From NCBI GenBank assembly GCA_001898485.1, contig MKTY01000009.1, forward strand, positions 62,001 to 126,000: a DNA stretch of 64,000 nt, given 5' to 3'. This DNA comes from Sphingobacteriales bacterium 46-32 (GTDB lineage: Bacteria; Bacteroidota; Bacteroidia; Chitinophagales; Chitinophagaceae). The notes beneath the pieces were generated by a model, which did no database searches, was not told the origin of the DNA, and saw nothing but the letters and a program-made list of their open reading frames with translations. A program made the translations under genes and the position numbers. Below, piece after piece: positions 8,561 to 64,000 of this stretch; position 1 is the stretch's first letter, and each line of letters starts with the position of its first letter.

Positions 8561-8594
8561 TTTGAGGAAAAATGCCCGTGGGCCTGTATCTTTG
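8561..8594 (+). promoter_or_regulatory. Bacteroidota promoter of the SRP RNA
   Basis: A -33 TTTG at 8561-8564 and a perfect -7 box TATCTTTG at 8587-8594 are separated by 22 bases. The RNA 5' end inferred from its closing stem is at about 8599, five bases after the -7 box, which fits the usual spacing. Confidence 0.8.
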
Positions 8595-8598
8595 CGCC

Positions 8599-8693
8599 GG
8601 CAGGTCTTACACGACCAGCTCCTGTCGAACCTCCCCAGGGCCGGAAGGCAGCAAGGATAGATGGTTGTAGCGGTGCGATGTGAGTAGCCTGCC
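8599..8693 (+). ncRNA. ffs: Small bacterial SRP RNA (4.5S, ffs)
   Basis: About 95 bases with the conserved SRP domain IV core: the internal-loop segments around CAGGGCCGGAAGGCAGCAAGG carry the GGAA tetraloop hairpin that binds Ffh. The ends pair as GGCAGG with CCTGCC, closing one long hairpin. With Ffh it targets membrane and secretory proteins to the translocon. The 5' end is supported by the promoter just upstream, and a terminator hairpin follows at 8710-8730. Confidence 0.96.
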
Positions 8694-8709
8694 ATTTTTT
8701 TTTCTTTTC

Positions 8710-40957: not shown

Positions 40958-40969
40958 TTGATTTTTAAA

Positions 40970-41021
40970 TTTATGTTTGAGATAATTTCAATTTATGTTT
41001 GAGATAATTTCAATTTATGTT
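40970..41021. repeat. 22-base direct tandem repeat upstream of the efflux operon
   Basis: A 22-base unit beginning TTTATGTTTGAGATAA occurs at 40970-40991 and again at 40992-41013 with no mismatch, and eight bases of a third copy follow. It sits 13 bases upstream of the barrel gene start on the minus strand, where an operator or promoter would lie. Confidence 0.85.
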
Positions 41022-60250: not shown

Positions 60251-60320
60251 GGAAACTAAAGTCTGTTTTTGGAAATTTATATCAAAAAATGGAAATTAAA
60301 ATCTTGTTTTGGAAATTTAT
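60251..60320 (+). repeat. Four direct repeats spaced exactly 20 bases (iterons)
   Basis: GGAAACTAAA at 60251, GGAAATTTAT at 60271, GGAAATTAAA at 60291 and GGAAATTTAT at 60311 have identical 20-base spacing, close to two helical turns, so all face the same side of the DNA. Inter-repeat spacers are T-rich before the second and fourth. The last copy lies between the -33 and -7 promoter elements of the ATPase gene. Such an array is typical of a cooperative operator. Confidence 0.85.
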
Positions 60321-60331
60321 TACTATATTTG
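60304..60331 (+). promoter_or_regulatory. Promoter of the ietAS-like operon
   Basis: A -33 TTG at 60304-60306 and a perfect -7 box TATATTTG at 60324-60331, 17 bases apart. Transcription would begin near 60336, giving a leader of about 24 bases before the ATG at 60360. The elements flank the fourth repeat of the array. Confidence 0.75.
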
Positions 60332-60359: not shown

Positions 60360-61547
60360 ATGCTCAAATATTTCAGTATAGTACAAGCTTTAAGCAGGTC
60401 CGCATTGGCAATGCCGAATGAAGCTGTCACTCATCAAATTAGAAGACTAAAAGAGAGCTTGGAAAAAGATGGATTTACTAAAGAGGCTAAGTCATTGGAG
60501 GCTTTACTGACTGCCTCTGAATCTTCGCTTGAGATGTCCCCAAGTAAAATCCAAAGATCTTTCGTGGTTTTAAAAGGTGAAGAGATAACTCCTAAGACAT
60601 CAATTCCTGTAGATAAGGAGACATCAACACCATTAGCAGAGATTTTTTTTCCTGATGATCTACCAGAGAAAGCTCCAATGTTTGATGATAACATCCAGCT
60701 TGCTATTCACTCAATTGTAAATGAATGGAGCAAATTCGATCAACTTTTAGAAATTAATGCTACTCCAGCTAGCTCCTGCTTAATTTACGGTGCGCCAGGA
60801 ACTGGTAAGACACATTTAGCAAAATGGATTGCAAAACAAATTGGATTACCTGTAGTACTGGCAAGGTTGGAAGGGCTTATGTCTTCGTATCTAGGAACTA
60901 CATCTCGAAATATTGGCAATCTATTCACTTTTGCTAATAGGTATAAATGCATCCTACTTCTCGATGAGTTTGATGCAATTGCTAAACTCCGTAACGATCC
61001 GCAGGAGGTTGGTGAAGTAAAAAGAGTGGTGAATACCTTGTTGCAAAGTTTGGATTCACGTCATGAAAAAGGTTTTACCATTGGTGTAACTAACCATGAA
61101 AGTCTTCTTGATCCTGCTATTTGGAGAAGGTTTGATATACAGGTTGAAATTCCCAAACCTTCCCCTGAGGTAATGATTCAATTACTTAAGACTTTTATTA
61201 CGCCTTTAGAATTTAACGAAAGTGAAATTAAGTTTTTAGCATGGTGCTTAGATGGCTCATCAGGTGCTGATGCAGAAATGCTTTCTAAATGGCTAAAAAG
61301 AGCTTTTGTTTTAGAAAGGGAAAGCAATATAGTGGAAGTAATGAAGCAATTTGCTGTACTTAACTCTGGAAGGGTGGACGCAAAAAAGAGAAATGTTATG
61401 GTTCACAGTGATGAAGATTTTATCAATATGTTATTAAACGATAAGGTTTACTCTTTTAAACAGAAAGATCTAGCATCATTGTTCGGAATGACTCCGTCAA
61501 CTTTGAGTAAACAGTTATCAAAATTTAAAGATTCTGAAAAAATATAA
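60360..61547 (+). CDS. ietA: AAA ATPase, IetA-like
   Basis: A 395-residue AAA+ ATPase: Walker A GAPGTGKT (144-151), Walker B ILLLDEFD (198-205), sensor 1 TN (244-245) and arginine pair RR (256-257). The N-terminal 130 residues are helical and unassigned. The last 30 residues (KQKDLASLFGMTPSTLSKQL) look like a helix-turn-helix. The start at 60360 fits the promoter; an in-frame upstream start at 60309 lies before the transcription start. It is followed after three bases by a subtilase gene. An ATPase/subtilase pair of this order is the ietAS system, known from Agrobacterium plasmid exclusion and from anti-phage screens. Confidence 0.85.
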   Translation: MLKYFSIVQALSRSALAMPNEAVTHQIRRLKESLEKDGFTKEAKSLEALLTASESSLEMSPSKIQRSFVVLKGEEITPKTSIPVDKETSTPLAEIFFPDDLPEKAPMFDDNIQLAIHSIVNEWSKFDQLLEINATPASSCLIYGAPGTGKTHLAKWIAKQIGLPVVLARLEGLMSSYLGTTSRNIGNLFTFANRYKCILLLDEFDAIAKLRNDPQEVGEVKRVVNTLLQSLDSRHEKGFTIGVTNHESLLDPAIWRRFDIQVEIPKPSPEVMIQLLKTFITPLEFNESEIKFLAWCLDGSSGADAEMLSKWLKRAFVLERESNIVEVMKQFAVLNSGRVDAKKRNVMVHSDEDFINMLLNDKVYSFKQKDLASLFGMTPSTLSKQLSKFKDSEKI

Positions 61548-61550
61548 GTT

Positions 61551-64000
61551 ATGGCAAATAGTCCTGTTCAAATAGTATTAAATAGCGATGCTTTTATTGA
61601 AGCATTAGAAAATAATGGTGGCGGTGGTTCTAAAGACTTTTTTGCTGGAAATGATAATGAATTCATTGAGCATAGGGATAACATTCAAAATCAGCTTAGT
61701 GAGATAAAGAGTATGCAGTTGGTAAATAGTTTCGCCAAGGTTTCTTATGCGAAAGTTACATTAAAGCAAACTGCATTAGCAAAAAGCCATCGTCCAACTT
61801 CCCAAGTTTTCAAAAGGGATGTTGCTCCTATAATTGGAGCTGGGGATTTGGGAGAATTATTTGTCGAACTGACTCCTGAAAGTATTGATAAAATAAATAC
61901 TAAAGTTGGACAGGCCGAGCCTGAAACAAGATATAAAGAAAAGAATGGAAAAAATGAACCTAATCCTTCAAGATTAAGAAGTGAAGTTGGTGCAATTGAA
62001 GAAATTAGTCCATACACCGCAAGTGACAAAAGGAATTTTTCTGTCAAAGAAGCCGTAAAATGGCTATCTAATCCTCAAACTGGCGGTTCGTATATGGTAG
62101 AATTATTTGAAGCTCCTCCAGCGAGACAAGATTGGGATCTACTAAGCAAATACAAATTCGATTTGTTTGATAGCTTTTTTGGCGGGTTAACCGTTTTGGG
62201 CACAGGCTTATTTGTATCAAGAATTACTACCGGTCAGGGTTCATCTGTTGTGTTTGGTATAAAATTAGAGAAAACAGATTCGTCTCCGGTAATACAACTT
62301 TACTCATCGTCAACAGCAGGCAAATCAGGAGAGAAAAAATCTATCGACCTCGATTTGGAGAGACATAACCAATTGTTAGAATATTTAGGAAATCATCCAT
62401 TGGTAAAAAAAGTTACTCTTCCTCCCATCATTACACAAAGCTCAACTGTCAAATCTCAGGTCAAAGGTAAAAACTTTACTGTTCTTGCTCCTGATCACAA
62501 AGGCTCATATCCGAAAATATGCGTTGTAGACGGTGGTGTTTCGGACGTTTATGGTGACTGGATAGAAGATCGTTGGGGATTAATTAGCAGCACGGATAAA
62601 GACGAAAATCACGGTACTTTTATAGCTGGATTAGCAATCTTTGGTCAACAATTAAACGGAAAGGCTATTTGCAGGGAGGTTGATGGTTGTAAAATTGTAG
62701 ATCTTGATATATTGCCTCGTGTTGACAGATATAGTTCCTACTATTCAAAACCTTTAGAATTTTTTAATGAACTTGAAACTGCTGTTCAGGAATTAAAAGC
62801 TAGAACTGGAGTTCGAATATTTAATTTCAGCTTGAATATAGAAGAACATGCATCAACTACAGGTTATAGCATTCCTGCACAAATTTTGGACAAGATTGCG
62901 GAAGAAAATGATGTCGTTTTTGTTATTTCGGCGGGTAATACCCATCCGAGAGATATTAGAAAAGAATGGCCTTCGGATCATTTTGATGCATTAAAAATAT
63001 TAGCTTCTTCGAGAAATGATGCTATTAAAAAACCAGCTGAAAGCTGTCGTAATATCAGTGTTTCAGCTTTAAATCCTCCACATCTTGACGGTGTTGTTCC
63101 TTACGCTCTAAGTAATTACAGCTGTCGAGGACCTGGACTACGAGTAGGCCTTAAACCTGATTTTGCTCATATCGGTGGATCCGGGACTAGTCATCCAATT
63201 TTAGGACATGGTCTTCTATCTCTAGACCCTACGAGTAACATTGTCGATGGTTGCGGAACTAGCTATGCTGCTCCTAATGTAGCAAAGACTTTAGCAAGTC
63301 TTGATCATTCAATTGAAGGTATTGTTTCAAGAGAAACACTAATCGCTCTGGGAATCCATCATGCTGTATTACCAGAGTCCCTTAACGACAAAAATTTGAG
63401 AAACGTCTCCAAACACTTGGTTGGATTTGGTATGCCGGACGGTTCTGAAGATATTTTGAACGGAAGTTCATCTGCAATAACATTAGTATTTGCAAACCGA
63501 GCTATAAGTGGACATAAGATGAGTTTTAAATTTACGTGGCCTTCAAGTTTAGTAAGGGATGGTAAATGCTTTGGGCATGCAAAACTTACCATTGTAAGTA
63601 CGCCAAGGTTTGATTACAGATTTGGTTCTGAGTTTGTCAGAATAAATATCGACGCAGCTTTAAGGCAACTGCAAAATAATGGTAACTATAAAGGAAGGTT
63701 GAATGCAATTTACACGCCTGAAGATGGTGATGGAAGTTTATACGAGAAAGATCAGATTGAACATTCTTTCAAATGGAGTCCAGTGAAAGTTTATGAAAAA
63801 ACTTTCCCCCGAGGAGTTGGACCATCGACAGAATGGAAACTAGATGTAGAGTACTTATCAAGAGATGGTGTAACTCTACCAGCTGCAGGTGTACCGTTTA
63901 CAGCAATACTAACAATTTCTGATCCTGATAGTGAGAAACCAGTATTTAATGATATGCGACAAATGCTACAGTCGCTTGGAGTCCAAGCCGTTGATATCAA
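61551..64000 (+). CDS. ietS: Subtilisin-like serine protease, IetS-like (partial, continues past window)
   Basis: At least 816 residues, open to the window end. The S8 catalytic triad is complete: aspartate 327 in VVDGGVSD, histidine 354 in NHGTFIAG, serine 571 in GCGTSYAAPN, with oxyanion asparagine 463 in SAGNTH. About 320 residues precede the protease domain and contain a GGGG stretch near residue 22 but no signal peptide, so it should be cytoplasmic. The segment after the triad (about 600-816) is beta-rich. It starts three bases after the ATPase stop, so the two are coupled. In the ietAS pair the ATPase and protease are both required; the protease target is unknown. Confidence 0.87.
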   Translation, partial: MANSPVQIVLNSDAFIEALENNGGGGSKDFFAGNDNEFIEHRDNIQNQLSEIKSMQLVNSFAKVSYAKVTLKQTALAKSHRPTSQVFKRDVAPIIGAGDLGELFVELTPESIDKINTKVGQAEPETRYKEKNGKNEPNPSRLRSEVGAIEEISPYTASDKRNFSVKEAVKWLSNPQTGGSYMVELFEAPPARQDWDLLSKYKFDLFDSFFGGLTVLGTGLFVSRITTGQGSSVVFGIKLEKTDSSPVIQLYSSSTAGKSGEKKSIDLDLERHNQLLEYLGNHPLVKKVTLPPIITQSSTVKSQVKGKNFTVLAPDHKGSYPKICVVDGGVSDVYGDWIEDRWGLISSTDKDENHGTFIAGLAIFGQQLNGKAICREVDGCKIVDLDILPRVDRYSSYYSKPLEFFNELETAVQELKARTGVRIFNFSLNIEEHASTTGYSIPAQILDKIAEENDVVFVISAGNTHPRDIRKEWPSDHFDALKILASSRNDAIKKPAESCRNISVSALNPPHLDGVVPYALSNYSCRGPGLRVGLKPDFAHIGGSGTSHPILGHGLLSLDPTSNIVDGCGTSYAAPNVAKTLASLDHSIEGIVSRETLIALGIHHAVLPESLNDKNLRNVSKHLVGFGMPDGSEDILNGSSSAITLVFANRAISGHKMSFKFTWPSSLVRDGKCFGHAKLTIVSTPRFDYRFGSEFVRINIDAALRQLQNNGNYKGRLNAIYTPEDGDGSLYEKDQIEHSFKWSPVKVYEKTFPRGVGPSTEWKLDVEYLSRDGVTLPAAGVPFTAILTISDPDSEKPVFNDMRQMLQSLGVQAVDI

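Follow-up and report, generated by a model that had tools for sequence, protein, structure and literature searches.

A conserved operator-like repeat array in front of the toxin-antitoxin operon ietAS and its association with a helix-turn-helix tail on IetA

Four direct repeats at an exact step of 20 bases precede the ietAS operon in the window, by which we mean the whole stretch of 64,000 nucleotides analyzed here. This operator-like array is real and conserved, belongs to a toxin-antitoxin/defence operon that is already known, and is most likely read by the ATPase IetA itself. Across IetA relatives, the array is conserved in its register and its position at the promoter, the repeat sequence is specific to the IetA clade, and the array is associated with a C-terminal helix-turn-helix (HTH) tail of the ATPase. 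This family-wide association between array and tail looks new. We consider it probable that the repeats form the ietAS operator and that IetA binds them via its HTH tail, thereby repressing its own operon.

Assignment of the gene pair to IetAS

According to profile matches, the two genes downstream of the array are ietA and ietS, which form a known toxin-antitoxin/defence pair. The first (60360..61547, + strand) encodes a 395-aa AAA+ ATPase, the putative antitoxin, that matches PADLOC profile PDLC02195 over residues 3-390 (539 bits, E 1.9e-162) and PF00004 (E 9e-29). Its helical N-terminal domain is followed by an AAA+ domain and the C-terminal HTH tail, and its AlphaFold model has a mean pLDDT of 84. 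In an alignment of 65 sequences (A1), the GxPGxGK and LDEFDAIAK stretches show little or no variation; this alignment, like a second one of 36 sequences (A2), was drawn from 100 tailed loci. The AAA domain, which made up most of the coverage in the VIA-align comparison of IetA, matches the Vps4/p97/FtsH/TRIP13 group. The probable start of ietA is the ATG at 60360, which is kept in relatives, and not the mechanically listed TTG at 60309. The second gene (61551..64000, + strand, continuing past the window end) follows on the same strand after a gap of 3 bases. It encodes an S8 subtilisin-like protease, the putative toxin (PADLOC PDLC02199, 1042 bits; PF00082, E 5.4e-19), whose complete ORF in locus L200 corresponds to 826 aa.

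The initial annotation had missed the identity of the pair, by which the presumed repressor doubles as the putative antitoxin. Its statement that a separate regulator gene is absent held among the ORFs of at least 120 aa from ietA to the contig end. IetAS is said to have been first described by Yamamoto in 2009, in connection with plasmid incompatibility. Its mode of action was described as unknown in 2023, according to an excerpt of the corresponding paper (PMC9958689).

The tail comprises residues 338-395 of IetA (61371..61544, + strand), as delimited by Pfam, alignment, and AlphaFold, with helices at residues 341-349, 351-359, 368-374, and 379-393. The HTH-like character that had been suspected for this end of the ATPase is supported by a match to PF13545 (E 2.7e-5, which is under the curated cut-off) and by the AlphaFold model. 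When the tail was folded alone, the Foldseek matches were mostly DNA-binding HTH proteins, none of them significant (best E 0.74). Taken with the alignment, the sub-threshold Pfam match and the model point to a predicted DNA-binding domain on the antitoxin. The length of the IetA tail is bimodal, with up to 59 or with 72 or more residues; the tail-less class was first set by eye, and a tail-length rule reproduces the split of the first set of loci described below.

The repeat array and its promoter

The array lies on the + strand and consists of copy 1 (GGAAACTAAAGTCTGTTTTT, 60251..60270), which begins with GGAAACT and is the weakest, and of copies 2 (GGAAATTTATATCAAAAAAT, 60271..60290), 3 (GGAAATTAAAATCTTGTTTT, 60291..60310), and 4 (GGAAATTTATTACTATATTT, 60311..60330), which all begin with GGAAATT. 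Direct reading confirmed these starts and the step of exactly 20, as had been claimed for this array. Seven of nine columns are invariant across the four copies. When the 207-base intergenic region was shuffled 2000 times with its dinucleotides preserved, no shuffle reached seven invariant columns at a step of 20 (largest value 5), nor did any of 300 shuffles at any step of 10-45. Tandem Repeats Finder gave the array the top score in the window (119) and parsed it as two 40-base units, copies 1 and 3 and copies 2 and 4 being the more alike pairs. The score of the array in the column comparison was equalled elsewhere in the 64 kb only by an unrelated 7-base repeat near 1.9 kb. A zero-mismatch two-copy pattern occurs three times in the 5.49-Mb genome, each time at the array; with up to two mismatches, the genome-wide total of the two-copy pattern is at the control level (7+2 vs 6+2). 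In most near relatives, the position of copy 1 is occupied by AGAAACT or a similar sequence. Rfam and tRNA scans gave no match at the array locus.

It is scarcely credible that the array has no function and merely reflects AT-rich DNA of low complexity or a common tandem duplication. The region is AT-rich and a division of the array into two 40-base units is possible, but none of the 2000 shuffles matched it, and the repeat cores are conserved across loci while the spacers between them have diverged. Furthermore, proteobacterial loci carry a GC-containing motif at equal spacing, and the spacing peak is family-wide and was found again in a held-out set. A chance or low-complexity repeat was ruled out by the shuffles together with the genome-wide uniqueness of the zero-mismatch pair. 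A unit of 40 instead of 20 bases, which is possible from the window alone, was rejected since relatives step by 20-21 bases.

Promoters of Bacteroidota follow the consensus TTG/TAnnTTTG (-33/-7). A putative -33 element, TTG (60304..60306, + strand), and a putative -7 element, TATATTTG (TAnnTTTG; 60324..60331, + strand), were assigned to this consensus by eye. Copy 4 sits in the putative spacer between them, in agreement with the initial annotation, and the operator-like sites overlap the operon promoter that is predicted in the window from this consensus. Among the 21 GGAAA-type loci, a TAnnTTTG box is found 11-15 bases past the start of the last repeat in 16, is absent in 4, and lies upstream of the repeats in 1. 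At a distance of 11-15 bases between the start of the last repeat and the -7 box, a bound protein should block RNA polymerase. IetA could instead bind the array as an activator, or act in both ways, with the upstream copies activating and the last one repressing, which would create a threshold switch. In some loci, the distance of upstream copies from the start codon is as large as about 167 bases, which is beyond the need of simple blocking (L062 has 8 copies), and positive activation was proposed as necessary for the tail-less relative sgiAT, as stated in an extract of the respective report (PMC5006074). However, a promoter spacer, in which the last repeat is located in 16 of the 21 GGAAA-type loci, is a classical site of repression, and the sgiAT promoter was strongly active uninduced according to an extract of a later study (PMC9927553). 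We therefore regard activation by IetA as unlikely.

Conservation across IetA loci

Upstream DNA of IetA relatives was collected from genomes in GTDB, from contigs in IMG/VR, and from the order to which the window belongs. A first set of 128 of 173 loci was retained (IetA identity below 90%, upstream sequence of 150 bases or more), of which 101 encode an HTH-tailed and 27 a tail-less IetA. A motif-blind scan determined the spacing between 10 and 45 bases that gave the best three-copy match; taken locus by locus, strict triple-match P values were too weak in many cases, and a pooled spacing scan was therefore used. In relatives with unrelated flanks, GGAAA-type repeats are spaced by 20-21 bases. 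The conservation of the repeats upstream of homologues, which had been suggested as a check, was thus found: the array is kept in register and in its promoter position despite the unrelated flanks.

Across the 101 HTH-tailed loci, the scan gave peaks at 20-21 and at the double spacing of 41 (mean at 20, 6.56 vs 4.18 in shuffles; mean at 41, 5.40 vs 4.03), whereas the 27 tail-less homologues had no spacing peak (at 20, 4.19 vs 4.06 in shuffles). The best spacing was 19-21 in 50.2 of the 101 tailed loci, as compared to 8.4 +/- 2.1 in shuffles, and either 19-21 or 40-42 in 69.6 of them, as compared to 14.4 +/- 2.8. As controls, a spacing of 19-21 was obtained in 24.0 of 248 regions upstream of ORFs other than ietA from these loci and in 11.6 of 101 ietA coding stretches. 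The signal fades with distance from the window's IetA: in three groups of falling score against this protein, spacings of 19-21 or 40-42 were found in 22.0 of 23, 29.1 of 35, and 18.5 of 43 loci. A separate chain score exceeded the 99% shuffle level in 64 of the 101 tailed and 2 of the 27 tail-less loci. Where IetS is present, the spacing was detected in 61 of 84 tailed as compared to 3 of 23 tail-less loci (Fisher 2.9e-7, a significance that is inflated by kinship). The unchanged scan was also applied to a held-out set, for which 55 of 113 newly fetched loci were retained. Here, the spacing was present in 22 of 34 tailed and 2 of 21 tail-less loci (Fisher 6.2e-5, likewise inflated by kinship) and, when only loci with IetS were considered, in 20 of 27 and 1 of 10, respectively. 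By the scan, the spacing is absent from 23 of the 84 HTH-tailed loci with IetS and from 12 of the 34 held-out tailed loci. Upstream of five HTH-tailed IetA proteins (L126, L131, L138, L148, and L166), no 20-21 base array is visible, and their operator, if any, may be differently built.

The pTiC58 pair of IetAS, a system that PADLOC also counts among the anti-phage defences, shares with the window the two gene families and their order. However, its IetA ends at the AAA lid and has neither an HTH tail nor a 20-base array upstream, whereas the window's IetA belongs to the HTH-tailed branch. In 17 loci with pTiC58-type IetA, which were not de-duplicated, no array was found (1.8 of 17 by scan), and IetS adjoins ietA in 13 of them. 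The idea that the array is common to all AAA/subtilase loci was excluded by this tail-less branch. Since the tail-less pTiC58 pair is reported to act as a toxin-antitoxin system, the array is unnecessary for this function. The operator-like array splits IetA proteins into an HTH branch, which is presumably self-regulating, and a tail-less branch.

The tail-less branch also bears on a mainly non-transcriptional role of the IetA-bound array, either as a DNA scaffold on which the IetAS complex is stored or gated, or as a self mark in plasmid or element exclusion. Such a role would account for a copy number, up to 8 in register, that is above the need of a simple operator, and IetAS was originally described for plasmid incompatibility, as rendered in extracts of citing papers (Yamamoto 2009). 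However, the array is tight to the ietA promoter with a fixed geometry, and the very pTiC58 pair of the incompatibility finding has neither the tail nor the array, which makes this role quite improbable.

Repeat sequence and IetA clade

The spacing is constant, while the repeat sequence shifts with the IetA clade. The Bacteroidota repeat type is TGGAAATT, and (T/C)GCA(A/T)C repeats are found in Geothrix and in the majority of proteobacterial loci. The repeat is ATGCAT in L108, CGTTC in L118-L120, and ACGTTT, GATTCG, or ATAACAAA in L132, L134, L201, L252, and L260, the tails of which are mutually similar. Neighboring repeats of the GGAAA type are 20 bases apart in 26 pairs and 21 bases apart in 19; the 28 GCAWC-type loci possess 2 to 8 motif copies, with 78 neighbor pairs at 21 and 16 at 20. 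Geothrix locus L061 (Acidobacteriota) has a repeat of the GCAAC type that predominates in proteobacterial loci, and an unrelated repeat is present in L003, which is from the same family as the window. Both cases indicate that the repeat tracks the protein and not the host. Another candidate for this comparison of protein and host, L052 (labelled Alphaproteobacteria, with a GGAAA-type repeat), was set aside because its binning is uncertain. In a partial Mantel test on 54 of the 101 loci (chain score of 19 or more), the partial r was 0.33 for repeat against HTH similarity given AAA and 0.21 for the reverse, AAA given HTH; that repeat similarity tracks HTH similarity beyond AAA is suggestive only, as phylogeny is incompletely removed by this test. 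The IetA clades can be regarded as natural specificity variants, with one ATPase fold, several repeat sequences, and one spacing.

These data also concern the possibility that the array is bound by another regulator, either of the host or of the conjugative element described below. IetA is the putative ligand, and the repeats lie on a mobile element that may encode other regulators. Nevertheless, the repeats accompany ietA even where the flanks of the locus are unrelated, their sequence follows the IetA clade as exemplified by L061 and L003, the zero-mismatch pair is absent elsewhere in the genome, and the array is associated with the IetA tail. A foreign regulator is hence very improbable.

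Proposed mechanism

In the autorepression by IetA that we favor, each IetA protomer contributes its single C-terminal HTH, and several protomers would together occupy the sites of the array, which are short and asymmetric (core TGGAAATT in the window). Occupation of the last site, between -33 and -7, would block RNA polymerase, and the blocked promoter would keep IetA and the protease toxin IetS low, corresponding to a negative autoregulation by the antitoxin. The initial annotation had likewise suggested autorepression by the ATPase, possibly as an oligomer, with a putative release on stress or invasion, and this reading is supported in part by the conserved array and its association with the tail. 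The spacing of 20-21 bases is constant across clades, as if it were set by a protein assembly. Sites two helical turns apart would be on one face of the DNA, and short asymmetric sites are in line with a head-to-tail assembly in which each site takes up one HTH.

A further-reaching version, which we put forward as a speculation and consider doubtful, is that the array represents the footprint of AAA+ protomers assembled head to tail, with their number set by the copy number and with transcription governed by the nucleotide- or toxin-bound state of the ATPase. In this case, the promoter would act as a sensor: whatever engages IetA elsewhere, such as a phage protein, foreign DNA, or excess IetS, would strip the array and fire the operon. 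If true, an antitoxin assembly templated by DNA would couple a defence ATPase to its own expression in a new way. The conserved operator-like array also offers an entry to IetAS, namely, as a clade-specific DNA probe for purified IetA, for the prediction of IetA-repeat pairing, and as a reporter for the activation signal.

Relation to known systems

The proposed logic is shared with type II toxin-antitoxin operons, in which a DNA-binding antitoxin represses its own promoter. Their operators are usually palindromes, whereas the proposed operator here is a direct-repeat array of about 3-8 short asymmetric sites, and the proposed repressor is an AAA+ ATPase. Autoregulation via repeated sites is also a feature of DnaA and of iteron-binding Rep initiators. 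DnaA, another AAA+ protein, reads short asymmetric repeats in its own promoter with a C-terminal HTH. IetA resembles DnaA in combining an AAA+ domain and a predicted C-terminal HTH with repeats on its own promoter; its AAA domain, however, falls into the Vps4-containing group mentioned above. Iteron-binding Rep initiators recognize direct repeats that are about two helical turns apart. This spacing is shared by the window array, but no replication initiator was found among the eight neighboring proteins scanned.

Like the window pair, SgiAT of SGI1 and TA132/3 of Mycoplasma are AAA-ATPase/subtilase pairs, and extracts of the respective papers report both as toxin-antitoxin systems (PMC5006074, PMC8562856). 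SgiA is reported, also in extract, to be 50% identical to the tail-less IetA of pTiC58. An operator array is not mentioned for either pair in these extracts, and the comparison is one by description. More generally, such repeats are unmentioned in the extracts of the literature searched on IetAS, SgiAT, and Mycoplasma TA132/3, a search that covered papers other than the founding one on IetAS.

Genomic surroundings

The IetAS pair is cargo of a conjugative transposon, with TraG, relaxase, and MobC genes on one side and a DUF4133 gene beyond the window on the other. We take the latter gene to be TraF-like. Just past the window end on the same contig, downstream of ietS (L200:4049-6842), there are genes for a DUF2188 protein, a three-repeat multiubiquitin protein, a DUF6791-ThiF (E1-like) protein, and a DUF6527 protein. 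These genes correspond to a ubiquitin-like conjugation operon beside IetAS, and the region is likely to be a defence island in the conjugative transposon. The gene upstream of the pTiC58 ietA (L174:316-942) encodes a DUF6088/AbiEi-like antitoxin.

Other repeats in the window are a 7-base tandem array of AGTGGAC at 1879-1951 (about 10 copies, 83% matches), a 7-base tandem array of ACTGTCA at 2028-2065 (5.4 copies, 100% matches), and a 22-base tandem repeat at 40964-41021 (2.6 copies, 97% matches). A Bacteroidales small SRP RNA is present at 8591-8698 (RF04183, 93.5 bits).
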